Part shown: one piece after another, positions 38,592 to 54,916 of the stretch
Layout: each line of letters opens with the position of its first letter
Position numbering within the stretch: the first letter of the stretch is position 1
Assembly (NCBI RefSeq): GCF_900109285.1
Contig: NZ_FNZQ01000005.1
Coordinates: 186,001-250,000, forward strand
Length of the DNA stretch: 64,000 nucleotides
DNA from: Jannaschia helgolandensis
GTDB lineage: Bacteria > Pseudomonadota > Alphaproteobacteria > Rhodobacterales > Rhodobacteraceae
Direction of reading: 5' to 3'
Notes under the pieces: generated by a model
Seen by the model: only the letters and a program-made list of their open reading frames with translations
Database searches by the model: none
What the model was told of the DNA's origin: nothing
Program-made: the position numbers and the translations under genes

Positions 38592-38623
38592 CTGCCCATC
38601 GCAACAATTCACAAACCAACCTG

Positions 38624-38648
38624 AACCCGCCCACGTGGCGGGTTTTTT
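38624..38648 (+). terminator. Rho-independent terminator after the tail module
   Basis: AACCCGCC pairs with GGCGGGTT around a CACGT loop and is followed by a run of T. It separates the tail genes from the lysis cassette. Confidence 0.85.
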
Positions 38649-38665
38649 CGTTGCTGGAGGATACC

Positions 38666-39340: not shown

Positions 39341-39594
39341 TCGCCAGCACTCTCGGCGGGATCGCCGCCAATCCATGGGCGAGGGCCGCGCTTCGCTACG
39401 GTGCAATCGCGCTGGCCATCCTTCTGTTCCTGCTGTCGATCCGCCGATCCGGCGAGCGCTCCGGTCGCCTCGCAGAACGCCTTGAAACCTGGGAGACGTC
39501 CAATGAAATCCAGCGCCGAATGCTGGAGGCGGCGGCTCGTCGTCCTCGCAATCGCGACGAACTGGTTGACCGGTTGCGCGGCGGTGGGTTTTGA
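39337..39594 (+). CDS. Rz-like inner-membrane spanin
   Basis: An 85-residue protein with an N-terminal membrane span (YGAIALAILLFLLSI) and a charged helical remainder (RLAERLETWETSNEIQRRMLEAA), the topology of an inner spanin. The outer spanin gene starts inside it in another frame, as in lambda Rz/Rz1. The pair disrupts the outer membrane at the end of lysis. Confidence 0.75.
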   Translation: MIASTLGGIAANPWARAALRYGAIALAILLFLLSIRRSGERSGRLAERLETWETSNEIQRRMLEAAARRPRNRDELVDRLRGGGF

Positions 39595-39757
39595 GACCGG
39601 CGGCGTGGGGGCATGCCCGCCGGTCGTTGAATACAGCAGGGAGCTTCAGGCGCAGGCGGCCGAGGAATTGGCGTTGCTGGCTGACGGATCGGCCGTCGTC
39701 GAAATGATGGGCGACTATGCTGTCATGCGGGGCCAGGCACGTGCATGCCAGCCATGA
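39503..39757 (+). CDS. Rz1-like outer-membrane lipoprotein spanin
   Basis: An 84-residue protein starting inside the Rz-like gene in the +1 frame relative to it. It has a basic N-terminus (CWRRRLVVLAI) followed by a lipobox (LTGC, about residues 22-25), so it is probably lipidated at that cysteine and sorted to the outer membrane. This nested arrangement is typical of Rz/Rz1. The last prophage gene before the defence operon; only 50 bp separate it from drmB. Confidence 0.75.
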   Translation: MKSSAECWRRRLVVLAIATNWLTGCAAVGFETGGVGACPPVVEYSRELQAQAAEELALLADGSAVVEMMGDYAVMRGQARACQP

Positions 39758-39807
39758 TCGAGCGACAATTGCGTCAAAGTTGGATTTTGGACAGCTTATC
39801 AATCACT

Positions 39808-41673
39808 TCAGTCAAAGAAATTTGCCCCATGCCCACCCATCGTCGGAACTAGCAGGCTGCGGTCGAGAAAGAGATTTCGCATCTCGCAGCTGGTTTCAGC
39901 GATCAGTAGGCAGCCGTGACAAGCCGCGCCGTGGGTAGCTCGGTCGCCACTCCGACCGTCAGGCTCGTGGTCTGCGCAAACAGGGTCATTCGAGCAGACT
40001 TTCAGGCGATCTAGCGCACCTTTGAGAATTCGCGTGAACCTAGACCCAGCTGCAACAAGACCGCCCAGAGTACCCTGCGCGCCAGGTGTTGCGGTATATA
40101 TGAGGACTCCGCACCTTTCTGGGACAGTTCCGGTGCGGGAGTCTGAAAGTGCGTAGATCCGCTCCTTCAATGAACTCGCAGGGTATCCGCAGTCCAAGGC
40201 GATTTCTGCCATCAGTGCATGTGACAGACTGTGAAGAAGGGTGTAGGCCGTTCCCGGATAAGTCGGCGCACCGCCGGAAAAACGCCTCTGCCAGTGTTCA
40301 TAGCCGTTGATCAACTTTCCTTGCCGCGCCGCGACGTCGGTTTCCTGCAGCCAAGGGGCTACTGCTTTCTCATCGAAGTGAACAAAGAGTCCCTCCCCAA
40401 ATTGTTCAATGGCGGGAAGCCAATCGGCATGCCGTGATATCGGCGCACCGCGCACAGCCAGCTGAATATCTTCGATATCGCCATCTGCGCTCGTAGGTGC
40501 CGCTTCGAACCGGGTAAAGCCGTAAAGACATGATACTTCACGGAGGCGGTGTACAGCGACCAGGCCCTTGATGGATGATAGGTCTATACCTGCCGAAGTA
40601 TCCTCCCAGACAGAGCGCGGTAGCGTCTGGGCGTAAAGCTTTGCCGAAGCACTGTTGGTCCCGATTTCCGCTATTCCACATGCAAATACATCAAACTCAG
40701 AAAGCTTTGGCGACTTTGAAGCATCAACTCTCGCGCCATCGCGGATTCGCTTGAGGCGATCAAAGATGTCCGAGTTGGAATAGGCTCCCAAGGAAGCTGA
40801 CACTCTCGGGTTAAACTTCTTTGCCTGCGCCACATCGTCGACAGTCTGAACTCCGGCAAGGTCTCCCGAAAGCTCATCGACCAGTCTTGAAAGTTCGTCT
40901 TCCTCTGCAGGAAGAGAAATCACTGTGTAGACTTGCGGAAAGTATGTGTTGGTTGCCGTGCGGGTGAGAAGCTTAAGATTGTCTCCGCAGCCCTCAGGGT
41001 CTCGATCCATCAGCCAAGGTCGCTCACCACGACATTTTCCGAGCCTTCCTGGTTGGAAAGCATCCTGCAAAGACAGCCGTCGCTCGCATCCACACACCAC
41101 ACTGGTGTCTGCAGGGTCGGCACTTGTGCCCTTCTCTTCGATCCACATCGGTTCATGGCACTGTACCGCGCCATGTACGACCCACCGCCAATCGATATCC
41201 TGCATGTGTCCCTTCTCGCAGGCACAGACGAAGCGAATAGGAGTAACCTCTGATTTGCGCCCATCATCGAATACGAACTTTCGTCGTCCCTTGGTGTCGA
41301 GGTCCTGCCAGCGAACAAGGCGGCGCCTTCGCAGGCTCGAGTTCGGGCCGCTGCCCGTCTCTACCTGCTCACAAACGAACCATGTCGGAAACACTGGAGC
41401 CGCCACACCTTGAGGAGCTCCGTGTCCGAGCTCGTTCGACACAGGCGGCGTCCGCAGCGAAAGATGGACTTCCGGATCAAGCCGACCCTGTTCCTTCAAC
41501 AATTGCTCGAGGCGCATCGTAAGCCGTGGCTCAGGAATTGTCGTGAACGAGTTGCCCCGCATATCCCACCATTCCAGACCCGCAACGATCACAGAGCGTG
41601 TCGGAAGGTCGATCATCGAGCCGGGGCCAAAGGTCGAGATGAGTTGGCTAAGTCTCTGAGAATTCTTTGTCAT
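39808..41673 (-). CDS. drmB: DISARM protein DrmB (DUF1998)
   Basis: A 621-residue protein that pairs with DrmA to recognise and block incoming phage DNA. The DUF1998 block covers the last third (YTLLHSLSHALMAEIALDCG, GVLIYTATPGAQGTLGGLV), followed by cysteine pairs (CSNDPVCADHEP, CHGCLLIAETSCEMRN). A second Cys region lies near residues 150-200 (VCACEKGHMQDIDW, VCGCERR). It is the last gene of the operon and overlaps drmA by 4 bp (ATGA), so translation is coupled. It ends 50 bp from the prophage spanin gene. Confidence 0.93.
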   Translation of the reverse strand: MTKNSQRLSQLISTFGPGSMIDLPTRSVIVAGLEWWDMRGNSFTTIPEPRLTMRLEQLLKEQGRLDPEVHLSLRTPPVSNELGHGAPQGVAAPVFPTWFVCEQVETGSGPNSSLRRRRLVRWQDLDTKGRRKFVFDDGRKSEVTPIRFVCACEKGHMQDIDWRWVVHGAVQCHEPMWIEEKGTSADPADTSVVCGCERRLSLQDAFQPGRLGKCRGERPWLMDRDPEGCGDNLKLLTRTATNTYFPQVYTVISLPAEEDELSRLVDELSGDLAGVQTVDDVAQAKKFNPRVSASLGAYSNSDIFDRLKRIRDGARVDASKSPKLSEFDVFACGIAEIGTNSASAKLYAQTLPRSVWEDTSAGIDLSSIKGLVAVHRLREVSCLYGFTRFEAAPTSADGDIEDIQLAVRGAPISRHADWLPAIEQFGEGLFVHFDEKAVAPWLQETDVAARQGKLINGYEHWQRRFSGGAPTYPGTAYTLLHSLSHALMAEIALDCGYPASSLKERIYALSDSRTGTVPERCGVLIYTATPGAQGTLGGLVAAGSRFTRILKGALDRLKVCSNDPVCADHEPDGRSGDRATHGAACHGCLLIAETSCEMRNLFLDRSLLVPTMGGHGANFFD

Positions 41674-44600
41674 GTCAGATCGTCCGCGTTGGCGATTGTA
41701 TTTCCGTGCGGATCTCTGACCTTTAGAGCGACACTCGACTCGACGTCTCTCATCGACCGGCCAGCGACGAACTTGCGATGGGGTTCATCGAGATTGGCCC
41801 AATCCGGCTCCAAGGGCATATGTAGAAGTCGATGGGGGCTCTTCTTCTTAGCGTAGGCGAACTGATTGCCCCCAGCAGCTTGGTCGTCCCCAGTTGAAAT
41901 CCAGGCATCGATTATGTCATCAATTGCGGTCCTGAGCGCCGCGTGACCACCTGCGATCATTTGAGCTGGAGCCCTAGCTACAATGGCTTCGCGCACATCT
42001 TGGCGAACTTGGGGCGAGTCCTTCAGTTCAGTAACCGCATTTTCTGGCGTCAGCAGGGGATCGACGTGGCGTGCCGCTGCAACCACGACTGCTGCTAATG
42101 CCCGATCCAAGGCGCGTGCGGCCCATGGCGTGACGCTAGTCGCCTCCACGGAGCGATAGAACGTACGATGGAACTGGCCGAATTGCTCGAAATGCATTCG
42201 GTCTCTGGGTTTGTGAAGGTTTAAGACGGCAACGACCAAGCCGGGACGGGCAGGATCGCGGCCAACACGACTGGTGGCCTGGATATACTCGGCCGCCGTT
42301 TTGGGTTGGCCTTGGACCATCATCAACCCAAGACGAGTGATGTCGAGTCCGACTGAGATCATGTTGGTGGCTAGAGCGACATCTACACTTTCGGTTCCCG
42401 GCTCAAAGATGGCTTCGAGCCTTTGCTTTGCCAAAGCAACTTTGTCAGTTGACTCGCGGGACGTCAGCTCCATCGGTTCCCTGATCTGGCGATCCGCGAA
42501 AGGCAAGTCTGGAGGATCGATCCGACACCTCTGGGTGCCATAGCGGCCAGCTCTATCCCGGACCTCGTCTTCAACGATACGGCGTGCACCGCCCAGTTCG
42601 CGAAGAGCATTAAAGTAGCAAAGGGCTGTCATGTAGGGATCCGCGGGATTCAAGGTGCCGCCAGAACCAGCCTTTGCATCATAAAACGCTTGTGCCGCCG
42701 CCAGAAGGGTCGTCAAGGAGCGAAGGAAAACGAGTTTCGGTCCTCTTCCCTGGGCTGCTATGCCCATGTAAAGACGAGCCGGATCTTTGCTCGTAGGCAC
42801 CGTCCTTGCGAAAAAACTGTCTGTTCGATCAAGGCCTGGCGGCGGGAAGATGCTCGTTGCGCTTCTGTCGAAGAGTGCTTCGATTTGGTCAGAGGCCCGG
42901 CGGACTGTCGCGGTAGACGCCACAATCTTTGGCCGGATGACATGGTCGCCAACCTTGCGGCTAGCGAGTTGATCGATAGCTGCTTCGTACAATCCGGCCA
43001 CCGTCCCCAATGGCCCTGAGATAAGGTGCAACTCGTCCTGAATAATCAGATCCGGTGGCGCTAGCGACCATCCGTTTCCCAGCGGGCTTCCCTCGCCAGG
43101 CTCAGCTGCACCAAAGAAGCCAAGATCATCGCGAAAACGGTCAACATGACCGAAGAAAGCACCAGTCTCACCGACCCAAGGCAACGCCGCGAACTTGTCG
43201 ACGGTCGCAATCAAAAACGCGGGGAGACGTCGGTAAATTGGTTCGTCGACAGTCAGAACAGGAAGCGGTCTCCCCCGACTGAAATCGCAGTTGGTGTTGG
43301 CGCATCTTATTTCAAGATTGGTCGGGGCATGCTCATTCGGCGTACACGCAAATGAAGATGGTGAGAATTCGGTACCACACCAAGGGCAGGCTTTCAGCGG
43401 CGCGGGAGCTCGTTTGTCACGACCATTTCGGTATCGCCTCACTCGTCCAACTGCTGTCTTTTCGTCGGATTTTCCCTTGCCGCCAAGTTTGTTTGGCGAC
43501 GCATCAGAACCCACCCACAGTCCAATCTCGATGGGCCAATCGCCAAGCAGACGTCGTCCGCGTTCGTCTACGTTTTTGGGATCAGTTCGCATCAGTTCAA
43601 GCGCGCACACGACGCCCGCCGCTCGAGCCAACTGGTCCAAGGTCAACAGCCGTAGAGTATAGCGCATGATCACTGAAACGCCGGCACCCAATACGCCAGA
43701 AGCGGTCAGGCGTCGATGAGCAATTATGAGAGCGGCAAGACCAAGGTACGCTTCGGTTTTGCCACCGCCTGTCGGAAAGAACAGGAGATCAGCTGTCTCA
43801 CGGTCTGGGTGCGTCTTCTGTACCAAGCCCGAGATATTGAGCAGGATAAAGGCAAGCTGGAAGGGTCTCCATGTCGGGGGTCGCATCATACTTGGATCGC
43901 CGCTGGGCCCGGCATTCCGGCGTCGCGCAGCTGAGGCGACAGCAAGGTTCATGAAACGAAAGGCGGAACGAGCTGTCGGATCCGTCAGAAGCAGATCGAT
44001 TCCAGCAGCAATCCGGTCTCGCGCCTGCTCCATTTCCGACACCAAACGCTCGCCAGTCTCCTTTCGCCGACTCGGGAGCGGTGTTAGTTTCTGACGCTCG
44101 GCGTCAATCCAAACACCATATAATTCAGGAAGTTTGGCGATCAGGGCATTTAGGGTGTCTCCATCCTTACTTGCCGCTTCGGCCAAAGCTTCCATTTCGA
44201 ACGAAACGAGCGACTTGATCTCGTCATCTTCGTTCGGGGCGACGCGCTCAACTTCCGCTGTGGGTAGCGGATTCGTCCATACGCGCTTCACAGTGCCAAG
44301 AGCATCTTCGTCCTGGTCCCAGCCTGCTGCAGCGTTTCGTCCTACTGCCCATTCACTCACATCTCGGTAGTGCAAGTCGGCGACCCTGAGATCCCAGTCG
44401 TCCGCACGAGTGCCAGACAAGTCTCGGCGGGGATGAAATCCCCTCTCGAGGGCGAGCTCGAGGCGCGCCTGAAAAACGAAACTCACATCCGAATAGAAGC
44501 GGTGGACAGTCGCTCGTCGGTTCACGAGGAAGACTGTGAGTGCCCGAACCTCTTCCTGCCCTCCATCCGGGGTATCGTACTTGAAAGTTCTAGAGTGGGT

Positions 44601-45212
44601 CTCCAGCGTCAAACCACCGCCTCTGCGTTGCTCGGCAGCGCTTTCCGGGATCAAGATCGGTTCGCCTCTGCCGTCACGCACGGTTATTTGAACGACCCGG
44701 TCCTTTGGAGTACGAACCCAGTCCACCATCGGCCTGGAGTTGCGCTTGGGCTTACCATCCTCGTCAAACTCCTCAGGAAGGGGCTCCGGGAGAAGTATGT
44801 TTTCAGGGAGAGCTGGTTCAGTCCTGTAGTCGCCCCACGAAATCCTTGCCTCGATCTCTTTTACTTCCGGAGGCAACAAGACTGTCAGGCCAATAGAGGA
44901 GGGCAAGAAGCGTCTCCGAGTGTTGGGGGCCTCAGGCTCCTCGTTGTCACCGGCCGCGCCACCGGCACCCTCGGAGTCAGTTTCTTCGACGTCGATTTCC
45001 ATCTCTTCCTGCGCGGATGGATCATCGTCGCCGCCTTCGCCATCCAGCCCAAGCGGATCCTCAGCGGGCGCCAGAAAGCCAGTCAGATACCAGCGCGAGG
45101 GGCTTTCGTTTAGCCGTTCCAACGCCAGATCAGTGTCTTGGTCCCCCGGACCGATCAGGTCGCGACGAAACATTTCAACAATCTTTGAGCGGATATCTAC
45201 CGAGGCTGTCAT
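41670..45212 (-). CDS. drmA: DISARM helicase DrmA
   Basis: An 1180-residue SF2-type helicase. Walker A is PTGGGKTEA (about 480), the DEAH-like box is QDELH (about 725), a zinc ribbon lies before it (CPWCGTEF about 609, CANTNC about 638), and the C-terminal helicase part has TNMISVGLDI and QATSRVGRDP (about 990-1020). Such proteins translocate on phage DNA with DrmB. ATG 45212 is listed; a GTG at 45218, overlapping the PIN stop and better spaced from AAGGA, is an alternative. The N-terminal 70 residues end in an acidic, low-complexity region. Confidence 0.93.
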   Translation of the reverse strand: MTASVDIRSKIVEMFRRDLIGPGDQDTDLALERLNESPSRWYLTGFLAPAEDPLGLDGEGGDDDPSAQEEMEIDVEETDSEGAGGAAGDNEEPEAPNTRRRFLPSSIGLTVLLPPEVKEIEARISWGDYRTEPALPENILLPEPLPEEFDEDGKPKRNSRPMVDWVRTPKDRVVQITVRDGRGEPILIPESAAEQRRGGGLTLETHSRTFKYDTPDGGQEEVRALTVFLVNRRATVHRFYSDVSFVFQARLELALERGFHPRRDLSGTRADDWDLRVADLHYRDVSEWAVGRNAAAGWDQDEDALGTVKRVWTNPLPTAEVERVAPNEDDEIKSLVSFEMEALAEAASKDGDTLNALIAKLPELYGVWIDAERQKLTPLPSRRKETGERLVSEMEQARDRIAAGIDLLLTDPTARSAFRFMNLAVASAARRRNAGPSGDPSMMRPPTWRPFQLAFILLNISGLVQKTHPDRETADLLFFPTGGGKTEAYLGLAALIIAHRRLTASGVLGAGVSVIMRYTLRLLTLDQLARAAGVVCALELMRTDPKNVDERGRRLLGDWPIEIGLWVGSDASPNKLGGKGKSDEKTAVGRVRRYRNGRDKRAPAPLKACPWCGTEFSPSSFACTPNEHAPTNLEIRCANTNCDFSRGRPLPVLTVDEPIYRRLPAFLIATVDKFAALPWVGETGAFFGHVDRFRDDLGFFGAAEPGEGSPLGNGWSLAPPDLIIQDELHLISGPLGTVAGLYEAAIDQLASRKVGDHVIRPKIVASTATVRRASDQIEALFDRSATSIFPPPGLDRTDSFFARTVPTSKDPARLYMGIAAQGRGPKLVFLRSLTTLLAAAQAFYDAKAGSGGTLNPADPYMTALCYFNALRELGGARRIVEDEVRDRAGRYGTQRCRIDPPDLPFADRQIREPMELTSRESTDKVALAKQRLEAIFEPGTESVDVALATNMISVGLDITRLGLMMVQGQPKTAAEYIQATSRVGRDPARPGLVVAVLNLHKPRDRMHFEQFGQFHRTFYRSVEATSVTPWAARALDRALAAVVVAAARHVDPLLTPENAVTELKDSPQVRQDVREAIVARAPAQMIAGGHAALRTAIDDIIDAWISTGDDQAAGGNQFAYAKKKSPHRLLHMPLEPDWANLDEPHRKFVAGRSMRDVESSVALKVRDPHGNTIANADDLT

Positions 45213-45217
45213 GACCA

Positions 45218-45724
45218 CTAAATTCCTTCTGAAATAACGAGTTCGCTCAGGGTCTTGGCCAACCACTTGCTCGTGTACGCTGTCTTCAGGGGTTGCTTCG
45301 GGCGATAGCCAACGGCATCGAGAAGCTGCTCCAAAGCGAAAAGTCGGTCTCGAAACCCCGACCGAACGCCGAAGCGGAGACTGGCCTTGTCCGGCCCGCA
45401 CAGCACCCATCCGTCAGTTCTTATGAGGGCATGCGCCCAAAGCGAGTGCTCACCGATGTCCAGGTTGATGCCTGATGCCCTGAGCAAAACCTCCGCACGT
45501 TCGCGATCACTCACATCGTGCACGGCAGCCAACGAAGTCCGAAGTGCTGCAGCCTCGATCAGTTCCTCGGTTCGCCGACGCTGAAAGCCTGTTTGAGTCT
45601 CCGTCACACAATCTTCCACGGTTTCAACCGAGTAGCCGCCAGATAACGCACGCCAAGCCCCGATCCGATAGGACTCGAGAATGACGTTCGTATCAACAAG
45701 GACAGGACCCGGGTGCTTCGCCAT
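45218..45724 (-). CDS. PIN-domain ribonuclease-like protein inside the DISARM operon
   Basis: A 168-residue PIN protein: VLVDTNVILESYR gives Asp 11 with the classical DTN motif, CVTETQTG supplies Glu 42, and GEHSLW (Glu 92) with GPDKASL (Asp 112) complete the four-acid site. PIN proteins cut RNA and are often toxins. The start is ATG 45724, 7 bp after the XRE-ImmA stop; the frame extends upstream without a better start. It is not a standard DISARM component. Its neighbour, an XRE-ImmA protein, suggests a toxin/regulator pair, which is inference. Confidence 0.8.
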   Translation of the reverse strand: MAKHPGPVLVDTNVILESYRIGAWRALSGGYSVETVEDCVTETQTGFQRRRTEELIEAAALRTSLAAVHDVSDRERAEVLLRASGINLDIGEHSLWAHALIRTDGWVLCGPDKASLRFGVRSGFRDRLFALEQLLDAVGYRPKQPLKTAYTSKWLAKTLSELVISEGI

Positions 45725-45731
45725 GGCAGCC

Positions 45732-46838
45732 TCACAGCTCTGCAGGGGGTTCGACCCCGTGAGCGAAAAACAGATCGGTGAGGTCTTCAACCGTTTGATC
45801 GAGCAGCCCTGCAGCGCGGCGCGTCGAAACCCGCCCCTCGTCAACAGCAAGACCGATCACTTCCATAAACGGCTTGGAAAAAAGAACTGGTACCTCAGCA
45901 TCGCCCACATCGCGGCCATTGTTTCGAAGCGCCGCATCATTCAGCGCTTTGGCACGGGCAGGCTTGAGTTCGCTGAGCGCCACCAAGCGCCATTTCAGAG
46001 CAGATGCGGTCACCTGAAGCTCTTCTGCAGTGGCGTTCAGTTGTGAGATCAGTTCGCCGTCCTCGAGGCTCGCCCAATCGCCAAACCTGCCGAGAACGGC
46101 CTGCGGCATGAGAACAGCAGACGCAAAGTTGTTCGCCAATTGCTCGACGCGGTTCCCACCGGTTTCCTTCGCCTCCTCGGAATGTTCCGGGGGCATCGCA
46201 TCCCATGTGAGGATGTGAAACAGCTCATGAGCGAGGTCGAAGTGCCTACGGCCGACGACCTCCTTCCGGTTGATCAGTACGACGTCGAGCTCTGGCAGCC
46301 GACAGGCCGCACCCGAAATTCCCTCGAACGCGTCGACCATCAGCACTAGAATGCCAAGCTCACGCTCCATCACTTCAGCCAGCCGCGCGGCTGGAACGTC
46401 GCCCAGCTCGAACTCTGCGACAAACCGCTCTCCAGCTTCCATGGCATCCTCGAAGCTGGAACGTTTGGTCAGCCCCAGTGACCTGCGAAGCAGTGGGGCG
46501 GCACGACCAACCTGTGGGGCGATGGCGCGGAACGCGGCAATCCAGCGACCGGCGTTTCGCTCATAGCCATTCAGCACACCCGCACTGACATTGGTCTGCC
46601 GCCACGAGAAACGGCCTTCACCAACCAGCATGAACGGATCGGTGAAATACTCGAGCGTCGCTCCAAGCTTCTCGACGGCCAGCATCAGTTCGTCCGCCGT
46701 GACGCGGCGCTCACCGGTCTCGATGGCAGACACCGTCTGCCGGTCCTTGAAGCCGAAAAGTTGCGCCAGGTCGTCCTGCGAGAGCTTTCGCTCTTCGCGC
46801 AGGGCCTTGATCCTCGCGCCGATAAGTTGTGTCGCCAT
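45732..46838 (-). CDS. XRE-HTH/ImmA-IrrE fusion regulator
   Basis: A 368-residue one-chain version of the XRE-ImmA pair. Residues 1-60 are an XRE HTH (IKALREERKLSQDDLAQLFG, TVSAIETGERR). The metallopeptidase part has HELFH (204-208) and a downstream Glu (VEQLANNFASAVLMP, about 232). ATG 46838 has GGAGG six bases upstream. A predicted promoter and a perfect palindrome lie just before it (46857-46897). It probably represses its own promoter and is inactivated on a signal, controlling PIN, drmA and drmB. The fusion differs from the split pair at 565-1817. Confidence 0.85.
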   Translation of the reverse strand: MATQLIGARIKALREERKLSQDDLAQLFGFKDRQTVSAIETGERRVTADELMLAVEKLGATLEYFTDPFMLVGEGRFSWRQTNVSAGVLNGYERNAGRWIAAFRAIAPQVGRAAPLLRRSLGLTKRSSFEDAMEAGERFVAEFELGDVPAARLAEVMERELGILVLMVDAFEGISGAACRLPELDVVLINRKEVVGRRHFDLAHELFHILTWDAMPPEHSEEAKETGGNRVEQLANNFASAVLMPQAVLGRFGDWASLEDGELISQLNATAEELQVTASALKWRLVALSELKPARAKALNDAALRNNGRDVGDAEVPVLFSKPFMEVIGLAVDEGRVSTRRAAGLLDQTVEDLTDLFFAHGVEPPAEL

Positions 46839-46856
46839 GGTGTGCCTCCGTGGCGC

Positions 46857-46897
46857 TATATAATCTTGCAGAACGGCAAATGCAAGAAATTCTTGCA
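46857..46897 (-). promoter_or_regulatory. Predicted internal DISARM promoter with palindromic operator
   Basis: On the minus strand TTGCAT (46885-46880) and TATATA (46862-46857) are separated by 17 bases, a good sigma-70 promoter. The perfect palindrome TGCAAGAAATTCTTGCA (46881-46897) overlaps the -35, and another TCTTGCA half-site lies at 46864-46870 within the spacer. The start codon is only about 12 bases past the expected transcription start. The arrangement fits autorepression by the XRE-ImmA protein and a second transcript for the distal DISARM genes. Confidence 0.65.
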
Positions 46898-46905
46898 CCC
46901 GTCAC

Positions 46906-47562
46906 TCAGGCGACCCGGTCAGCCTCTTCGATCCGCGCGGTGCCTGCTTCCTCTTCGAAATAGCGATCGCCGCCACTCAGAGACGAACAGAAGAGGTCGG
47001 CCAAGACGCTGCCGATCCGGCGCATGTCGTCATGGAAGAGGTCCAACGTCAGCGTCTGTGCTGCGCCTCGCTCGGCGTTGAACTCCACCCGGAAACCTGC
47101 CAGCAGCGTCTTTCCCGTTCGGGCAGAATGCTTGTGGATCGATCTGATCGTCCGTCCGTCTCCATGCGCCAGGGCGTCTCGAAGCCACTTGAAGAAGTCC
47201 TCCGCCGTCATGGCCTCGAAGTCGGCGTTGATCCTGCGGTCCTGGTTTTCACGTCCATCCGCCCGGTCGACCAGCACGATCTGAGGAGCGGCTAGGGAAA
47301 GCCGCCACGGATCGTCCGTTATCAGGGTGTCCCGCATTGCTTCCCGCACGTTGTGGGCGCGATGGTCCGCCTGGTCCTCCCATTCGACACGCTGACCTAG
47401 GTTGCCAGCCACCCATGCGCGGTTCTTGGTCCAGAGCAGCACACTGCTGAACAGGGCGAAGGTCTGGGTTACGTTGAACGTCGTCTGCGGCGGCTCGTCG
47501 AGCATCGCCTTCAAACGGTTTACGATGGCCCATTCGACATGTTCGTCAGCGATACCGCCCAT
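46906..47562 (-). CDS. HEPN-like protein inside the DISARM operon
   Basis: A 218-residue, mostly helical protein with FFKWLRDALAHGDGRTI: Arg 128 and His 133 form the R-x4-H active motif of HEPN ribonucleases, with the typical following GDGR. ATG 47562 has GGAGG six bases upstream, 12 bp after drmMI. HEPN proteins are frequent RNA-cutting effectors or scaffolds in defence and toxin systems. It is not a known DISARM subunit. The remainder of the protein is not recognised. Confidence 0.65.
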   Translation of the reverse strand: MGGIADEHVEWAIVNRLKAMLDEPPQTTFNVTQTFALFSSVLLWTKNRAWVAGNLGQRVEWEDQADHRAHNVREAMRDTLITDDPWRLSLAAPQIVLVDRADGRENQDRRINADFEAMTAEDFFKWLRDALAHGDGRTIRSIHKHSARTGKTLLAGFRVEFNAERGAAQTLTLDLFHDDMRRIGSVLADLFCSSLSGGDRYFEEEAGTARIEEADRVA

Positions 47563-47574
47563 GTGCTGCCTCCA

Positions 47575-50500
47575 TCATGCCGCTTCTCCTGCGTCGTCTT
47601 CGTCATCGTCTACGTCGGACGCGGTCAGGCCTGCGGCGCGTTCGGCTTCGTCACGTTCTGCGTTGAGGGCGAGGAGGCGGGCGAGGACCTCGTCCTTGAA
47701 CTCGGACGGCCAGTCGAGGCGGGTCTTGGCTTGCTTGCCCTCGTCGGCGTCCTGTTCGATGTACTCCGGCTGCGCCCGGTCGGCGAGGTCGTCCCAGCCG
47801 TAGGCGCGCAGGACGGCGGCATCCATCTCGGCATGGAGTTCGCGCAGACAAGCGATATCTGAAGCGTTCTGACCGCGGTCGTGGAAGTGATTGTAGGTTT
47901 TGGTCAAACCTTCTTTACGTGAAAGCATTATCTGCGCCCTATGTTCGTCGTAAGCAAACCCAACCTTGCGCAGCTGAACTGACGATTCATGTGCAACCGG
48001 AAACGGGAATGTCTCGAAACAATCCGGTGGGCTGTAGTTCGGGGTTTCCCCCAACGTCGTGCCCCACATGAGGGCCCAAAGCTCATGCACTCGACTACTG
48101 ACGACGGCAAAATCTCGCTCTTCGCCGCTGGCGGCAAGTACAATGACCTTCTCATTGAATATCGTCTTGGCTGGCAAAAAGGCGAACGCGATGTAAGTGG
48201 TAATGCGGGATATCGCTAGAACACGACTTTGGGACCGAATTGCGTTGTATAGTGCAGGGGTATACGTTCCGTACTGCCACCAATAATCTCGCCTTCTAAT
48301 GGCGACAGAATACCCGCCTAGCCTGGCCCGATGCGGCTTAACTTTGTTTTCAACGATTTGTAGCAGATCAGGCCATTTCGTCGCCTCTTGGAGAGACATA
48401 TTCGCAAAGTTTATAGCAAACCGCGTAGCTTTTTGCGCTGGATCAGTCGCTAGTTCTTTCCCTCCGATGAACGGCATAATTAGTTCTGCGTTGTGCGGGT
48501 TCGCACTGATTAGGTCATCCATATCTTGAAGTGTGCCGGCTTGGCCGTTTTTTTCATCATCCGAAAAGATAAAGCCCAAGCCGTAAACGTCGCATCCGCG
48601 GAAAGCTTTCTTCTTGTTTGATCGAAGCTTTTTGGCAGTGAACTCGATTGCTGAAGGCAGAAGAAAAGAATTTATACCTTCTACTGGCCTGCCATTAAGA
48701 AAGGCCGATCTTCCTTTTCCGCCGCGCTCCACGTGAATAATGCTGACAAAAACATCAGCTTCACCCGGCCATTGAATGCTCTGTTGAGCTCGAAAAATAT
48801 CCGCGCCACTTTTCTTCAGCGACATCAAGCCAGCCTCGCGGGTGTCGCCTTCTGATATCGTTTTCGTCCCAACTAGGCCAAATGCGCCACCCACTCTAAG
48901 TACGTCAAACGATCTTCTCAAAAAGTGGGCAACGAGATCAACAGCTTTGCCACCGCTATCCTTGTGCGTTTCTCGAAGCCAGTCCGGATACCCGGGACCA
49001 AGCGACGGCCAGATCTTGGCACCTCCAAGAAAAGGCGGATTGCCGACGATGGCATCGAACCCGCCATTCTCGCGTTTGAACACTTCTGGGAACTCGATGG
49101 CCCAGTGAAACGGTGGAGTACCATACTCCCCATCGCGCAGCGCCGTCGCAGAAGCCTCCAGCAGGTCCCACCTTGCCGGGCGGCCCGAGAACCAGCTTTC
49201 TGCATCCGCCCGGGCTTTCTCCCGCGCCTTCGCCTTGTCGGCCGAGAAGAAGGCCGCGATCACCGCATCCCCGAGCAGCCGTACTGGCGACAGACGCGTC
49301 TCCACATGCTTGTGGCGCTGTTCCTGGATTGCACGCATCGTGTCGTCCGGTGCCGACCGGATTTCGGCGCGGGCCCGGTCCGCCTCGGCCACACGTTCGG
49401 CAACGAGCGGCCGCAGTAGAGGCAGGCCAGGTTTCGAAGCATCCCAGTTCGCTGCTGCGATCTGCTCGGGCGTCAGACCCACAAGGCTGTCGCCGCATTT
49501 CAGCGCATGGTCGAGGAAGGTGAACTCGTGATCCTTTGCCAGCGTGGCCAGCCAGAGCGATAGCCGCGCCAGATCGACCGCGCGCGCGTTCCGGTCCACG
49601 CCATAGAGACACCGCTGCGCGACAAGGCGGCGCGCATGAAGCTCCTCGTCCTCATCCGCCGGGATCTTCGGCCGCGCCTCTGGCCAGCGCGCCCAGGCAT
49701 CGACCAGGCGCGAGGTGATGGCTCGGCAGGCTTCGACGAGGAACGCACCGGACCCCATTGCCGGATCGCAGACCTTGAGGTCGAGGACTTGTTCGGGCGT
49801 CGCATCCGGCCCCAGACGCTCGAACGCTGGCTCCAGCGCATGGGCGACGATCGGCGCTGTCAGGCTGCGCGGTGTGTAATGGCTACCGGTGCGGCGGCGT
49901 TCGTCCGTCGGCTGGAGGATTGGCGTTCCCGTCGCCGCAACTATGTGGCGGGGCGAGCCGCGTCCATCGACGATGTTGTCGAGTGCGGCGGCGAGATCCT
50001 CGACCGTTGCAGCAGCCTCAATCGGCTTTGCTTGCGCGGCGGTCAGGGAACGGCCCACATTCTCCTTCAGGTCCTTTATCCGGTCCTTGCCCTTTTTGTT
50101 CAGAAGATCGTCGAGGCCAACGAAGACGGGCGTCTTGTTGTTCTTACCAGCTTTGATCGCTAGCACTCGACACGGCGCCTCCTCGACGGTGAAGCCCATG
50201 ACCGTCTCGTAGACGGAGCCGATCTGTTCGACATCGAGTGTGCGGTAAGAGAGGCGTTCACGCTGCTGCCCGCGCAGCTTCAGGGTCATGAGCCCTTCGA
50301 GAATGCGCAGGATGCAGCCGTCCGAGACCTGGAGGACGCGAGGGTCCTCATCCACATCGCTGCGGCCTTCGAGGAAAGGAAATTCATCCGGATCGAACAG
50401 CTTGCCGCCGCGCGCCTGGACGAAGTGGGTCGGTTGCCCTCCGTGGATCAGCCGGAACAGAGCCAGCAGCTGACCCCAGCCGCCGCGCCGTTCATCCATC

Positions 50501-51486
50501 GTGTCTGGGTTCAGCGCGGCTTCTTCGGCGAGGCGTGCAAAGAGGCCACGGACGGAATAGCTCGTCTCATAGATCGATCTGGCGCGGCCATCCGAGCGGG
50601 AGGGTAGCAGATCACGGTCCTCGGCATAGAGGATGAACACCAGCCGCATGAGGACCGTCAGAAGACCCTCATAGAGGTGGTCGGGATGGGAGCGTGCAAG
50701 GCCCCGCGTGAGATCAGGATCGGCTGCGTGCAGACCACGAAGGAGGTCGTGTAAAGCGCCGAGGACCTGACCGGCAAGTTCCGTGGAAACCGAAGCCTGC
50801 GCATCGCGGCTTTTCTTCAAGAGTGCGGGAAGTCGCCGTTCATCGGCATCCGAGAACAGACGGAAGCGGTCAAGGACGAGCTTCAGGCCCGCGAGCATTG
50901 GACGCCCGGCCACTGTCTCGAGAGGGCGGATCGGGAACGAGAGATGACCAGAAGTCTCGCCACGAGGCGCATAGACAAGGCGGATCACCTTGTCGGTGAT
51001 CATCACACCGGCAAAGACGCCGGTGTCACGTAGAAGACGCTCGAAGCGCTGGTGAGGCGTCGCCTCCCAGCCATCGAGCTGAGACCGCGTGTCAGGATCA
51101 ATTCCGGCGTCCTCGATACGTACAAGCAACTGCCAAGGCTGGTCGGCTTCGCCTAGCTCCGCCACTGCCCAATGCGGAGAAAGGGTAGTAGAATGCTCTG
51201 GCAACCTGACGATCAGTTGATCCGGGATCTCCGGGCCCTCTGCCGTACCGGCGGTGTGGCGAGCTTCCCAGCCCAGAACTTGTTCCGCAAAGGCCCAAGG
51301 GTCGAGGATCGCTGTGCCGTCGCTATCAGTGTTCAAAAGCTCGGCGATAGCACCTGTGTCTATCGGGCTCTGATGCAGTGGAGCTAGCCCCAGCTCCTTG
51401 AGAACGCTGGGCGCAATGACAAGTCCAACCGGCTGAATATGATCAAGCCACTCGAGGTCGGGGTCGCGATTAATCTCAGAAACCAT
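47575..51486 (-). CDS. drmMI: DISARM adenine-N6 methyltransferase DrmMI
   Basis: A 1303-residue class-1 DISARM methyltransferase. Motif I is CDPAMGSGAFLVEACR (about 573), the catalytic NPPF is in VGNPPFLGGAKIW (about 815), and a specificity-like region follows, as in Eco57I/BREX PglX-type enzymes. It marks host DNA as self. The N-terminal 500 residues carry restriction-like or DNA-handling segments without a visible nuclease motif. The C-terminus is acidic. It sits 5 bp after drmD. Middle parts around 48-49 kb are notably AT-richer than the phage genes. Confidence 0.92.
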   Translation of the reverse strand: MVSEINRDPDLEWLDHIQPVGLVIAPSVLKELGLAPLHQSPIDTGAIAELLNTDSDGTAILDPWAFAEQVLGWEARHTAGTAEGPEIPDQLIVRLPEHSTTLSPHWAVAELGEADQPWQLLVRIEDAGIDPDTRSQLDGWEATPHQRFERLLRDTGVFAGVMITDKVIRLVYAPRGETSGHLSFPIRPLETVAGRPMLAGLKLVLDRFRLFSDADERRLPALLKKSRDAQASVSTELAGQVLGALHDLLRGLHAADPDLTRGLARSHPDHLYEGLLTVLMRLVFILYAEDRDLLPSRSDGRARSIYETSYSVRGLFARLAEEAALNPDTMDERRGGWGQLLALFRLIHGGQPTHFVQARGGKLFDPDEFPFLEGRSDVDEDPRVLQVSDGCILRILEGLMTLKLRGQQRERLSYRTLDVEQIGSVYETVMGFTVEEAPCRVLAIKAGKNNKTPVFVGLDDLLNKKGKDRIKDLKENVGRSLTAAQAKPIEAAATVEDLAAALDNIVDGRGSPRHIVAATGTPILQPTDERRRTGSHYTPRSLTAPIVAHALEPAFERLGPDATPEQVLDLKVCDPAMGSGAFLVEACRAITSRLVDAWARWPEARPKIPADEDEELHARRLVAQRCLYGVDRNARAVDLARLSLWLATLAKDHEFTFLDHALKCGDSLVGLTPEQIAAANWDASKPGLPLLRPLVAERVAEADRARAEIRSAPDDTMRAIQEQRHKHVETRLSPVRLLGDAVIAAFFSADKAKAREKARADAESWFSGRPARWDLLEASATALRDGEYGTPPFHWAIEFPEVFKRENGGFDAIVGNPPFLGGAKIWPSLGPGYPDWLRETHKDSGGKAVDLVAHFLRRSFDVLRVGGAFGLVGTKTISEGDTREAGLMSLKKSGADIFRAQQSIQWPGEADVFVSIIHVERGGKGRSAFLNGRPVEGINSFLLPSAIEFTAKKLRSNKKKAFRGCDVYGLGFIFSDDEKNGQAGTLQDMDDLISANPHNAELIMPFIGGKELATDPAQKATRFAINFANMSLQEATKWPDLLQIVENKVKPHRARLGGYSVAIRRRDYWWQYGTYTPALYNAIRSQSRVLAISRITTYIAFAFLPAKTIFNEKVIVLAASGEERDFAVVSSRVHELWALMWGTTLGETPNYSPPDCFETFPFPVAHESSVQLRKVGFAYDEHRAQIMLSRKEGLTKTYNHFHDRGQNASDIACLRELHAEMDAAVLRAYGWDDLADRAQPEYIEQDADEGKQAKTRLDWPSEFKDEVLARLLALNAERDEAERAAGLTASDVDDDEDDAGEAA

Positions 51487-51491
51487 CTATA

Positions 51492-54400
51492 TCACCCTGA
51501 AACCGGCCATAGGTAAACAAGTCCGACCGGCTCCAGGCGATGGGCTCGGACCTCGTAGGATTCCCGCAGGCGTTGCGGTTCGTCTAGAAGTTCTTGTTCG
51601 AGCCGTGAAAGGCGGCTTTCCCAGTGCCTTCGATCCGCTTCGCGTTCGCGTCGCTCGTCCGGAACAAGATCAAGAGTGAGCTGGTTCGGATTGAAATCTG
51701 TTGCGGCTTTTGCGATCCTCTTGCGCTGTTGATCTAGCAAGCTTTCGAGTGACCGGGCTTCTTCTTCTCCACGCTTGACTAGCTGCGCCTTCACCGTCGA
51801 CAGGCGTTCAGCCGCGATCTTCTCGAATGCAGGCGTCAAGTCGGCGATGTCTTTGGCGTAGAGCTCTTTGACCCTCGAGACTGCGGACGCGGGTGCGGCG
51901 CGCGCATTGCGCAGTGCATCCTCAAGTTGGTTTAGCGTCCTCTCTTCCCCGCTTTCTCCCAGCGCCATCAGTTGTCGGCGTTCTCGGTCCGACTCACTCC
52001 AGATCGCTGTAACGGGAATGATCTCCTCATGGAGTCTTGCCGCTCCGGAACCGTACACGGCCAAACGCCCCATTAGGACAACTCTTGGCTGGGCCCCGGG
52101 ACCTTCGATAACCGATAGCCGGGACAAATTTGACTGGAATCCCTGACTGAGAAACCTCGATAGAAGTCGACGAACAAGTCGGTGTTCAAGATGGACCTGG
52201 ACAACATTATCGGCGTCTCTGCCATCAGCTAGAATTGGAGGCTCGAAAGCGATCGAGCGTATAGGCGCGTTCCGTCGCCAATCTCCCAATCTCTCTCCCC
52301 GTTTTCGAGGTCTGACGCGTAGATCGTCGAATGCATCGTCCCAACCAGCGTCTCGCGAGAACGCCGGATCGCTGGGGTCGAGATGGTATGTCTCTGTCCT
52401 GCCGACGGTCGCTCCGCGAGATTGATCAAGCGACAGACCTGCGCGCGACAGTGCGGCCGAGGCGACCCGCTTGAGGTCGTCTGCATTGACGCCGACCCGC
52501 TCTCGGGATCGCTCAAGAACTTTTCTTAGATCGTCTTGTTCTTTCAGAAGACGATCATGTCGCGCTCGTTCCTCGTCATCCATCTCTGAACGCGCCCGAT
52601 GAAGTCTTTCTGCATCGTTTTCCTCAGTTATTGCACGCGCAAGCGAGGCTCCTTGACCTTTCCCGATTCCACCTTCTGCCAATCGCTTCGAAATTTTGTC
52701 TTCGATCACCTTTCCAACTGAACCCAGTTCTTCGCGTATGGTCTCAGTTTTCCAAACCAGCGCATCGAGAACGATGTCAGTCTCGCGTTGAGCGTATCGA
52801 AAGTAACGGCAAAAGACTGTTTTGGCTGGCTGCAATTTCCGATCAATTCGACCATTTCGTTGCTCGAGCCTCGATGGATTCCAAGGCAGGTCAAAGTGCA
52901 GCAGATCAGAACAATGGGATTGAAGATTGATGCCTTCTCGTGCTGCGTCCGTGCAAATGAGAATTCGCAGCGGCTCAGTGCTTGGATCAGCATTGAACGC
53001 TCGTTTTACGTCTTCCCGGCGATCAGAACCCGTTGCACCTGTGAACACACCGATCCGTTCATCGGCGAGGTCGGTGGCCGAAAGTGCCTCGCGCAAACGT
53101 CGCTCTAGCCAACGTCTGGTATCCTCCCATTCTGTAAAGATAATTAGACGTCGCTGGTTCCAAGCCTCCCCGTCCAACATGTTTGCGCAAATCCAACCTA
53201 CCAGCCACTCCACACGAGCGTCTGGCCGCGACAGTTGCTTCTCTGCTAGTGTGAGCATCTCATCGACGGCGGCGAGCTCAGATATCAGCTCCTGACGAGA
53301 CGCATCGACAACTCCCGCGGACGAGGCCGCGCTTGCGCTTGCTTCTGCATCTTCATCGAATGCCTGCTCGGCGCTCTCGTCTTCTAGACCCAATTCAGCG
53401 CTCTCTTCAGCCGAGAGGGAGTTAACAAAACTGGCGGCTGAGTTCTCGATCCGAGCAACTTCAGTTCCGTCTAACACCTTTTGGAGGGTCACCCGATGAG
53501 CTTTCAGCGTGCGATGGAACGCGGCCACCGAAGATAGAAGGCGCTGCTGAAGCCCAACGAATGTCAGTTTGGCGATTGCGGCCTTGCCACTCGGTAGTTT
53601 GGCAATCCGCGCCATTCGAAGTTCACCATATGCGCCGAGTTGACGGGCCAATTCCAGCTCAGGTGTGCTTTCCGACAAGCCGTCGAGAATGATCGGCTCG
53701 ACAACCCGCTCGGGGAAAGCCTCTCCGAGACGGCGCAGATCGGATTTCAAACGGCGAACCATCACTGGTTCCAAGTCTTTGGGACGAACTTCAACACCCC
53801 GCGTGAAGCGCTGAGGGTCAAGCATTTCGAGCAAAGCTGAGAAGCTGTTGGAGTGACCGTTGTGCGGAGTGGCTGTCAGGAACAGTCTGTGCTCAAAGCG
53901 TTCCCCGAGCTCCCTGACCGCCTTTGTAAGCTGGCTGGATACAGCGTAACGGGTACCAGCGGACGGGGCGGCATGGTGTGCTTCATCCAAGATCAGAAGC
54001 GCCCGAGCTCGAAACTCACCAAGGACGTCCCGCAAACCAGCTGCGTAGGTTTCGTCGGTCATCAATCGGTGCGAAATGATAAACCGGGAGCCTGTGGTCC
54101 ATGGGTTGACCGAAAACCCTCTGGTGCGCCTGAGATCACCGACTCGTTCACGGTCAATTATTTCAAACGACAGGCCGAACTTTGCCTCTAATTCGTCTTT
54201 CCATTGAATAGTCATTGCGGGAGGCGCGGCGATAACGATGAAATCTATCCGTCGACGCAGTAAGAGTTCTCTGGCAATCAGCCCGGCTTCGATCGTCTTC
54301 CCGAGACCAACGTCATCTGCAATGAGGAGATTGACGCGTGGCAGGCGAAGAGCTTTTCTGAGTGGTAGCAATTGGTATGCATCAAGCCTGATCCCAGCCC

Positions 54401-54725
54401 GGAAAGGCGACTGAAGGAGGTCTCGGTCTGCGGCAGTCGCCGACTTCCAGCGGATCGCCCGGATATGCGCGGCCAAGACTTCGGGGCTGTCCGGCTGCCC
54501 GTGCCCGACGCCACTCCAGCGATCATCGTCAAGAAGCTTCCCATTGATCTCGGCATCCCAAAGAACCTCAAGCTGTTCGCCTTGTGCGTCATCAGCGATG
54601 CAGGAGAGGCCCAATGTCGAAAGGTCGCTCGCGTCACCCAACAAGGATTCGACAAGCCACTGCTTGCCTCGGACCTCGACGAAATCGCCTTGCGTAATGC
54701 CGTTACTGGGCGAGCCACTCTTCAT
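51492..54725 (-). CDS. drmD: DISARM SNF2-like helicase DrmD
   Basis: A 1077-residue SNF2-family ATPase that defines class-1 DISARM. Walker A is DDVGLGKTIEAG (about 137), the DEAH box is LDEAHHAAP (about 250), and the C-terminal helicase motifs are REGINLQSHCSDLLHFD and RLEQRNGRIDR (about 600-630). After the helicase come coiled-coil segments (DEERARHDRLLKEQDDLRKVL). It starts by a 4-bp ATGA overlap with the phd-like gene, so expression is coupled to it, and ends 5 bp before drmMI. Confidence 0.93.
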   Translation of the reverse strand: MKSGSPSNGITQGDFVEVRGKQWLVESLLGDASDLSTLGLSCIADDAQGEQLEVLWDAEINGKLLDDDRWSGVGHGQPDSPEVLAAHIRAIRWKSATAADRDLLQSPFRAGIRLDAYQLLPLRKALRLPRVNLLIADDVGLGKTIEAGLIARELLLRRRIDFIVIAAPPAMTIQWKDELEAKFGLSFEIIDRERVGDLRRTRGFSVNPWTTGSRFIISHRLMTDETYAAGLRDVLGEFRARALLILDEAHHAAPSAGTRYAVSSQLTKAVRELGERFEHRLFLTATPHNGHSNSFSALLEMLDPQRFTRGVEVRPKDLEPVMVRRLKSDLRRLGEAFPERVVEPIILDGLSESTPELELARQLGAYGELRMARIAKLPSGKAAIAKLTFVGLQQRLLSSVAAFHRTLKAHRVTLQKVLDGTEVARIENSAASFVNSLSAEESAELGLEDESAEQAFDEDAEASASAASSAGVVDASRQELISELAAVDEMLTLAEKQLSRPDARVEWLVGWICANMLDGEAWNQRRLIIFTEWEDTRRWLERRLREALSATDLADERIGVFTGATGSDRREDVKRAFNADPSTEPLRILICTDAAREGINLQSHCSDLLHFDLPWNPSRLEQRNGRIDRKLQPAKTVFCRYFRYAQRETDIVLDALVWKTETIREELGSVGKVIEDKISKRLAEGGIGKGQGASLARAITEENDAERLHRARSEMDDEERARHDRLLKEQDDLRKVLERSRERVGVNADDLKRVASAALSRAGLSLDQSRGATVGRTETYHLDPSDPAFSRDAGWDDAFDDLRVRPRKRGERLGDWRRNAPIRSIAFEPPILADGRDADNVVQVHLEHRLVRRLLSRFLSQGFQSNLSRLSVIEGPGAQPRVVLMGRLAVYGSGAARLHEEIIPVTAIWSESDRERRQLMALGESGEERTLNQLEDALRNARAAPASAVSRVKELYAKDIADLTPAFEKIAAERLSTVKAQLVKRGEEEARSLESLLDQQRKRIAKAATDFNPNQLTLDLVPDERREREADRRHWESRLSRLEQELLDEPQRLRESYEVRAHRLEPVGLVYLWPVSG

Positions 54726-54916
54726 TTTCCACTATCTCCAATCATACTGTCGGGTTTGGCCGGTGCTTGGAGAGCCGTGAGGCGATTGTACTCTTCAATT
54801 GCGATAACAACTACGACTGTCCGGCCGTACTTGTCGATTGCCACCGGTTCAGCTCGAGCGGTGTCGATCAGTCTTCCGAAGCTGTTCTTTGCGTCCCGCG
54901 CCGCCATATGCTGCAT
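54722..54916 (-). CDS. Phd/YefM-like antitoxin at the head of the DISARM operon
   Basis: A 64-residue Phd/YefM-type protein (AARDAKNSFGRLIDTARAEPVAIDKYGRTVVVVIAIEEYNRL), with the DNA-binding N-terminal fold and a short C-terminal tail. Its usual toxin partner (Doc or RelE type) is missing; the following gene is drmD, overlapped by 4 bp. GGAGG precedes the start. Phd proteins autorepress their operon, so this one probably controls DISARM expression. An inverted repeat overlaps a candidate -10 upstream. Confidence 0.85.
   Translation of the reverse strand: MQHMAARDAKNSFGRLIDTARAEPVAIDKYGRTVVVVIAIEEYNRLTALQAPAKPDSMIGDSGK

Follow-up and report, generated by a model that had tools for sequence, protein, structure and literature searches.

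A predicted operator and a putative XRE-ImmA/PIN toxin–antitoxin pair precede drmA in class-1 DISARM loci without drmC

We conclude that this locus is a class-1 DISARM system without drmC, with extra genes between drmMI and drmA, and that these extra genes are two modules: an XRE-ImmA/PIN pair and a HEPN-like gene that is swappable cargo of a slot behind drmMI. A predicted operator ahead of the pair suggests control of the drmAB half, and more than a back-up role. We think it fairly probable that the operon works in two halves, the latter beginning with a controller that regulates itself and brings its own toxin. The sequence-only reading had proposed a single three-gene cassette; its XRE-ImmA/PIN part recurs, in 26 distinct loci, and the HEPN-like gene, found in 7 of these 26, is separate.

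In the window (the whole stretch of 64,000 nucleotides analyzed, from Jannaschia helgolandensis), coordinates and family matches bear out the gene order first claimed, which on the minus strand runs phd, drmD, drmMI, HEPN-like, XRE-ImmA, PIN, drmA, drmB. The first gene encodes an orphan Phd-type antitoxin/repressor (54722..54916; Pfam PF02604, E 1e-8, above gathering) and overlaps the start of drmD by 4 nt; similarity searches also found Phd in loci L005, L024 and L076. It is followed by drmD, an SNF2-like helicase (51492..54725; NCBIfam NF038317, 1007 bits, cut-off 610), and drmMI, an MmeI-like methyltransferase with a target recognition domain (47575..51486; PADLOC DrmMI, 1202 bits; Pfam MmeI_Mtase and MmeI_TRD). 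The HEPN-like gene (46906..47562, 218 aa) lies 12 nt behind drmMI and 67 nt ahead of XRE-ImmA (45732..46838), PIN (45218..45724, 168 aa) follows after 7 nt, and drmA, a YprA-type helicase (41670..45212; NCBIfam NF038325, 1110 bits, cut-off 950), after a further 5 nt. The operon ends with drmB, a DUF1998/MZB protein (39808..41673; NCBIfam NF038324, 526 bits, cut-off 240; Pfam MZB). Three starts were chosen over those of the ORF list: for XRE-ImmA, an ATG behind GGAGG (alternative GTG at 46898); for PIN, an ATG (alternative TTG at 45850); and for drmA, position 45212, the listed start at 45410 falling inside PIN. Prophage genes adjoin the locus in the window.

The locus shares with class-1 DISARM the genes drmD, drmMI, drmA and drmB in one order on one strand, and differs from it in the genes between drmMI and drmA, the internal predicted operator and the lack of drmC. 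This lack, also claimed from the letters alone, held genome-wide: no DrmC match (NF038319) exceeded the cut-off, and the five sub-threshold matches lay on contigs C6, C11 and C14, with none on C12, the contig of the window. DrmC over cut-off was likewise found in 0 of the 24 cassette genomes or records searched. Of seven genomes searched that have no XRE-ImmA/PIN pair, however, five also gave no DrmC, and where a searched relative did carry drmC downstream of drmB (L029 and L034), the pair was absent. Its absence is not decisive against class-1 DISARM because passages of one source describe DrmC as dispensable and often missing (PMC9142583). An open reading frame behind drmB (39113-39802) was considered as drmC and rejected; it has no family match and partly overlaps an endolysin-like gene on the opposite strand.

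XRE-ImmA fuses an HTH repressor to a zinc-protease domain with the motif HELFH (Pfam HTH_3 and Peptidase_M78, both above gathering). It matches PADLOC RmrA (best E 3.4e-19), capP and capH, and keeps HExxH in 29/29 proteins; we predict from sequence that it is an antitoxin and autoregulator. The PIN protein had no match in Pfam, PADLOC or NCBIfam and a single, chance-level match among PDB sequences. Its structure model (pLDDT 90.9) resembles VapC, with a Foldseek match to VapC4 (5h4g, E 2.9e-4), and the gene is under purifying selection. Across 30 aligned proteins, D10 and E41 are kept in 29 (with a gap in one fragment), D88 and E91 in all 30, and D111 in 29; in the exception, L077, glycine replaces D111, and an IS5 transposase gene splits drmMI in that locus. 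The kept HExxH and PIN acids suggest active enzymes, and the modelled fold makes PIN a predicted RNase toxin. Judged by sequence, the pair is of a known toxin–antitoxin kind (COG2856/ImmA plus PIN, RosmerTA-like): COG2856-Xre fusions with PIN have been presented as predicted toxin–antitoxin systems, and ImmA antitoxins with PIN-like partners have been described, with the same arrangement of a fused Xre-ImmA directly followed by a small PIN (passages of PMC2701414 and PMC10440598).

The tally of genes between drmMI and drmA that the sequence-only reading had suggested placed XRE-ImmA and PIN there in 20/29 loci with a visible interval in one DrmA genome scan (34 loci minus L010, which begins inside PIN, and L032, L035, L037 and L038, whose interval is not visible). 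The arrangement is thus no single occurrence. L241 and L085, with contigs as long as those of L005 and L022, were treated as these same loci. The worry that its genes live without DISARM proved partly justified, as the pair stands in four places with no DISARM gene in the surrounding stretch. In three of these (L074, L079 and L080) it occurs as an independent pair, as known ImmA–PIN systems do, and in L043 it accompanies a DSR2-like gene. PIN relatives were absent from phage records at E 1e-5. Across 25 loci, distances of both proteins follow those of DrmA (Mantel r 0.79 for PIN and 0.84 for XRE, 0/2000 permutations as high), and the distance between the PIN and drmA matches is 8 nt in 20/25 loci. 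In the DrmA tree (quick, without bootstrap, long branches flagged, L032 not in its cassette count; L242 was left out of it and of the Mantel sets), the pair changes state 4 times and the slot content, with labels that we assigned, 15 times. Within the cassette-bearing branch three DISARM lineages are without the pair (L026/L027, L036 and the L028-L033 group); therefore a DISARM locus persists without it.

These data bear on a simpler explanation, in which XRE-ImmA and PIN serve addiction alone, travelling with DISARM and stabilizing the locus, with no role in drmAB control or defence. Membership of a known toxin–antitoxin kind favours it, as do copies with no DISARM gene nearby, which include two plasmids and one virus-like contig, the presence of pair-bearing DISARM loci on three plasmids, and the prophage neighbours in the window. 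However, the fixed place at the head of drmA and the co-divergence with DrmA count against hitch-hiking, because a free hitch-hiker could sit anywhere, and one copy nested among the DISARM copies heads another defence gene, the DSR2-like one. We regard plain addiction as unlikely, though it is the best of the alternatives. Unlike RosmerTA-like systems, the predicted pair here is continuous with drmA and drmB, shares one predicted operator with them and co-diverges with DrmA.

Sequence searches placed the predicted operator at 46861..46896 (minus strand), with three half-sites, GCAAGA, TCTTGCA and TGCAAG, and its 5′ end 58 nt ahead of the XRE-ImmA start codon. The 36-bp form matched once in the window and never in 100 shuffles, and the 27-bp core is a single occurrence in the 3.56 Mb genome at ≤1 mismatch. 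This core is exact in 25/26 cassette loci and within ≤3 mismatches in the 26th, and begins 34–61 nt before the matched XRE-ImmA start. The interval before XRE-ImmA aligns poorly except for the invariant core and the ribosome-binding site (GGAGG in the window). Among DISARM loci without the pair the core was found in 0/23. These 23 include L032 and L035, not visible upstream of drmA, and L247, in which drmMI was looked for and not found, but not L037, L038 and L087-L091; L087-L091 gave no match to a looser pattern. Outside DISARM, the pair stands alone with the exact core on a Burkholderia plasmid and has a degenerate operator ahead of the DSR2-like gene (L043, G549); at ≤3 mismatches no operator was found in L074 and L079, two of the four non-DISARM pairs. 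A scan for consensus sigma-70 promoters gave nothing in 45000-48000, the operator included.

In the two-half reading that we favour, the modification half would consist of phd, drmD, drmMI and, behind them, an exchangeable cargo gene, which in this locus is the HEPN-like one. XRE-ImmA, PIN, drmA and drmB would form an effector half beginning at an internal promoter that would overlap the operator. XRE-ImmA would bind the operator and repress its own mRNA, which would also carry PIN, drmA and drmB, and would probably neutralize PIN as a type II antitoxin. Repression may hold DrmAB down while the DNA is still unmethylated, and the pair may act as an addiction element that retains the operon in its host. 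An infection signal, perhaps single-stranded DNA as for PprI/IrrE and CapP, would switch on the ImmA domain, so that the repressor would be destroyed, DrmAB raised and PIN freed to act on its putative RNA target. PprI and CapP are activated by single-stranded DNA, according to passages of PMC10904395. A search with XRE-ImmA against the PDB gave no match at E 0.001, so this trigger would hold by analogy only. The arrangement resembles CapH-CapP and the controllers CapW/BrxR and CapK-CapS, in which an HTH repressor and an IrrE/ImmA-type protease head defence genes, and, as with CapH-CapP, a predicted operator heads immune genes; DISARM is itself named among operons with DNA-damage controllers in part of PMC13373217. 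The present arrangement differs from these controllers, CapH-CapP included, in that HTH and protease are fused in one protein (45732-46838) and that PIN separates the controller from the effector genes. Where a HEPN-like gene is placed as in the window, XRE-ImmA follows it at ~70 nt, so read-through from drmD–drmMI could still supply drmAB. This speaks against the two-half model, as do the negative promoter scan, the DISARM lineages without the pair, the D111 change in L077 and the two non-DISARM pairs in which no operator was found.

HEPN is the weakest label of the locus, and rests on an invariant R-x4-H motif where, in a model of pLDDT 71.5, a predicted helix ends. R128 and H133 are kept in 9/9 aligned HEPN-like proteins. 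The window protein has no family match; weak Pfam HEPN matches (E 0.1 and 0.21) appear in one of 9 relatives each, and a Foldseek search of the model against the PDB gave no match at E 0.001. Relatives were sought in 292 genomes of the order, plasmids, phages and viral contigs: two were found outside DISARM, both between hsdS and hsdR, and none among phage records at E 1e-5. As in HEPN genes of restriction–modification (R-M) operons (PrrC and others), a small R-x4-H protein lies beside methyltransferase genes. Here, in contrast, the gene sits in a variable DISARM slot, its HEPN membership is putative and no ATPase domain was found in its 218 aa.

The sequence-only reading had seen in HEPN, XRE-ImmA and PIN a single RNA-cutting back-up arm that fires once DNA-level DISARM is overcome. 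Relatives in R-M operons are consistent with this, second-line roles having been proposed for HEPN beside R-M systems in passages of Anantharaman 2013 (PMC3710099), as are purifying selection on PIN and on HEPN (HEPN dN/dS 0.08-0.13 in six pairs) and the correlation of HEPN with DrmA distances over 7 loci (r 0.94, 11/2000 permutations as high). Yet its presence in 7/26 loci and its detailed divergence, despite that correlation, led us to reject the HEPN-like gene as part of the XRE-ImmA/PIN pair: between the window and L019, HEPN dN is 0.076 and dS 0.78 against a saturated DrmA dS, and between L019 and L021, HEPN dN is 0.168 against 0.039 for DrmA. A back-up role by RNA cutting is plausible for PIN and unproven for HEPN, whose fold neither Pfam nor Foldseek confirmed. 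The joint arm is therefore improbable.

Least probable of all, a slim chance in our estimate, is that XRE-ImmA is an R-M style C protein that merely delays drmAB on entry to a new host, with PIN a non-toxic or regulatory nuclease, since to our knowledge C proteins carry no ImmA domain and the kept HExxH (29/29) and PIN acids suggest active enzymes. It would fit an XRE-type regulator with its own predicted operator that heads effector genes, as C proteins do in R-M systems (part of PMC12255303), and a locus found on plasmids and beside prophage genes.

The two-half model matters for DISARM timing and for how the host is protected from DISARM, both poorly understood; a conserved predicted operator heading the drmAB half opens this timing to direct test. 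More tentatively, and with the odds somewhat against it, XRE-ImmA, PIN and the operator could be a portable, toxin-bearing controller for unrelated effectors (drmAB, DSR2-like), in which loss of XRE-ImmA would be one signal that switches on the effector and frees the toxin, joining repression, addiction and abortive infection, and the adjacent slot could be a docking site where DISARM collects defence genes. The module before the DSR2-like gene, a single case, suggests that toxin–antitoxin pairs can act as interchangeable control modules heading defence operons. Searches for undescribed defence genes could, in turn, target the slot behind drmMI. In other loci it holds ankyrin, PDC-M45, peptidase-like or other unrelated genes, or is empty, with at least five unrelated gene kinds overall. 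Blastp was used to check slot families labelled as unknown, ankyrin, peptidase-like or small antisense ORFs, and the labels "peptidase-like" (HExxH-type motif, L016 and L017) and "HNH-like" (L086) were read by eye. The slot gene of L076 is annotated as a phospholipase D, with no Pfam or PADLOC match.

All eight genes proposed by the sequence-only reading lie on the window's minus strand, in the order phd, drmD, drmMI, HEPN-like gene, XRE-ImmA fusion, PIN gene, drmA and drmB. DrmD, DrmA and DrmB passed the NCBIfam cut-offs, and DrmMI scored 1202 bits in PADLOC. With the start codons that we picked, the genes from drmMI to drmA are separated by 12 nt (drmMI/HEPN), 67 nt (HEPN/XRE-ImmA), 7 nt (XRE-ImmA/PIN) and 5 nt (PIN/drmA). 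The lack of drmC, claimed for the window, extends to the whole 3.56-Mb genome, where no DrmC match (NF038319) exceeded the cut-off; five sub-threshold matches all lie on contigs other than the window's. Among 14 control genomes, NF038319 gave matches in 10, over the cut-off in one.

We conclude that the HEPN, XRE-ImmA and PIN genes are two modules: an XRE-ImmA/PIN pair and a HEPN-like gene occupying a variable slot between drmMI and XRE-ImmA. They had been proposed to form one cassette, a view that did not survive comparison of the 26 distinct DISARM loci carrying the pair (a further one, L010, is cut off). The slot holds HEPN in 7 of the 26 and otherwise other genes or nothing: an unknown family of about 270–320 aa (3/26), an ankyrin protein on the opposite strand (2/26), a peptidase-like gene, alone or with others (2/26), the three-gene candidate defence system PDC-M45 (1/26), a protein annotated as phospholipase D (1/26), other genes (4/26; L023, L078, L086 and L242), a small antisense ORF only (5/26), or no gene (1/26). 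On a DrmA tree of 39 rows, built by a quick method with slot labels assigned by us, the pair changed state 4 times, HEPN 4 times and slot content 15 times. Loci L021 and L014 (Afipia) are sisters by DrmA, with HEPN in the slot of the former and PDC-M45 in that of the latter (complete PDC-M45A/B/C, L014 1160–2941).

The 270–320 aa family recurs at L013 7658–8509, L011 1288–2094, L020 6447–7418 and L027 9168–10010 (48–78% pairwise identity), the L027 copy in a locus without the pair. Its L013 member had no Pfam or PADLOC match, and the family is a candidate for an unknown defence gene. Between slot and operator, seven loci (L007, L008, L009, L014, L017, L076 and L077) share one family of short antisense ORFs, annotated DUF2188 in L076 and L077; a second small antisense family occupies the same position before XRE-ImmA in L012, L015 and L018.

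The HEPN label of the window protein is tentative: R-x4-H is present in 9/9 sequences, and family and fold searches gave no match that counts. The correlation of HEPN and DrmA distances over 7 loci (r 0.94; 11/2000 permutations as high) argues against free shuffling of the gene among loci. In finer pattern the two histories are discordant. Between the window and L019, HEPN shows dN 0.076 and dS 0.78, whereas DrmA dS is saturated; L019 and L021 belong to one close DrmA group (dN 0.039), yet their HEPN dN is 0.168. Only two HEPN relatives were found outside DISARM, in genome G140 (33%) and on a Salipiger plasmid (28%), both between hsdS and hsdR in type I restriction-modification (R-M) operons. 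Given the varied slot content, the discordant divergence and these hsdS/hsdR-flanked relatives, HEPN appears to be an R-M-associated add-on and only one of the cargo types that this slot can hold. A second-line RNase role was proposed in 2013 for HEPN genes adjoining R-M systems (PMC3710099).

The PIN protein had no match in Pfam, NCBIfam or PADLOC. Its AlphaFold model (pLDDT 90.9) matched 8 PIN-protein chains, VapC4 among them (E 1.5e-4 to 9.5e-4). D88 and E91 are conserved in 30/30 aligned sequences, D10 and E41 in 29/30 (a gap in fragment L010) and D111, the last active-site aspartate, in 29/30, the exception being a glycine in L077 (Acidibrevibacterium). In this same locus, drmMI is split by an IS5 transposase gene; transposase and PIN gene lie at L077 8108–8910 and 12001–12501.

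XRE-ImmA/PIN is a pair of an already known kind. COG2856-Xre fusions with PIN toxins have been predicted toxin-antitoxin systems since 2009 (PMC2701414), and the NetFlax network with RosmerTA includes ImmA antitoxins with PIN-like partners (PMC10440598). XRE-ImmA may repress PIN-drmA-drmB and also neutralise PIN, and infection would inactivate it; ssDNA activates PprI/IrrE and CapP (PMC10904395). That DISARM is under control is not in itself new: a paper on CapK-CapS counts it with the operons that have DNA-damage controllers (PMC13373217). In the open-licence literature, we found no paper linking DISARM with drmC and HEPN, or with a PIN domain and ImmA; the main text of a 2025 preprint on YprA helicases mentions PIN once and HEPN, ImmA or Xre nowhere (PMC12458937).

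How widespread is the pair? A DrmA scan of species genomes gave 34 loci, with a readable drmMI–drmA interval in 29; XRE-ImmA followed by PIN was present in 20 and absent in 9. Overlapping draws of genomes around the window's, 398 from its phylum, 385 from its class and 390 from its order, yielded 17 distinct DrmA loci over the cut-off. Five carry the pair (G000, G864, G984, G1132 and G255) and the other 12 have a more distant DrmA (≤53% identical to the window's), which ties the pair to a single DrmA branch rather than to DISARM at large. The pair, though not the three-gene arrangement, is thus conserved across 26 loci within that branch. Over 25 loci, distances correlate with those of DrmA for PIN (r 0.79) and XRE-ImmA (r 0.84), with 0/2000 permutations as high; DrmB and DrmD track DrmA more closely (0.99) and DrmMI less (0.43; 16/2000).

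Named hosts are nearly all Alphaproteobacteria or unclassified Proteobacteria. Far from these, L018 lies on a contig labelled Streptomyces sp. AcH 505, reflecting either transfer or a contaminating contig. Two loci are decaying: L039 (G263) retains a partial drmMI, HEPN and the operator, whereas the pair and the greater part of drmA are gone, and L242 (G255) has the pair, drmA and drmB, with only the end of drmMI and no drmD found.

Upstream of XRE-ImmA, 21/21 aligned loci carry TCTTGCA and, some eleven bases later, GCAAG-NN-TA; the half-site in front of these, GCAAGA, hardly varies except in L022, where it is degenerate. The 36-bp form of this operator matched once in the window and in none of 100 shuffles, and the genome as a whole contains a single copy of its 27-bp core at ≤1 mismatch. 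The core is exact in 25/26 loci with the pair (within 3 mismatches in L086) and absent from 23/23 DISARM loci without it (434 kb in total; in two of these the region before drmA falls outside the available sequence). Judged by its sequence, it has the form expected of an XRE-ImmA autoregulatory site. Because a consensus promoter scan gave no match at the operator, we only infer a promoter there.

Outside DISARM, the operator accompanies the pair in part: it is degenerate in genome G549, exact on a Burkholderia plasmid and not found at ≤3 mismatches with the stand-alone pairs of a Rhizobium plasmid and a virus-like contig. A PIN profile search of the 385 class genomes matched only the window's own genome and G549, and tblastn with PIN matched five of 72,556 plasmid records, three of which carry DISARM with the pair. 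In G549 (L043 8541–14005), the pair stands directly ahead of a DSR2-like 1194-aa SIR2 protein (PADLOC Dsr2, E 1.5e-160); a TrwC relaxase gene lies upstream. On the XRE+PIN tree, the G549 copy falls within the main DISARM group (enclosing forks 96/91 and 98/96, exact place 83/85), and the pairs of the Rhizobium plasmid and the virus-like contig lie beyond that group or at an unresolved fork. As we placed the root on the Burkholderia pair, the tree is silent on which setting came first. We infer that DISARM took up an old toxin-antitoxin pair, a copy of which subsequently came to head a different defence gene.

The operon adjoins a prophage and probably lies inside it. Genes for a portal, a head protease and a tape measure lie ahead of it, as do GTA-like tail genes, and an M15 endolysin-like gene flanks it on both sides, in two direct copies that are 81% identical; these neighbours occupy 20266–39345 and 56472–57128. 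No integrase was identified among the window ORFs that were examined. In some relatives from the genus the tail region is present repeatedly; in G1136 it matched twice at full length and a further time in two pieces. With such surroundings, DISARM is here probably carried by a mobile element, as it is on the three plasmids.

An orphan Phd gene (54722–54916) overlaps the drmD start, as in L005, L024 and L076. Acidibrevibacterium has two VapBC-type pairs at this position (L077 719–2507), so the upstream half of the operon too has toxin-antitoxin-type neighbours.
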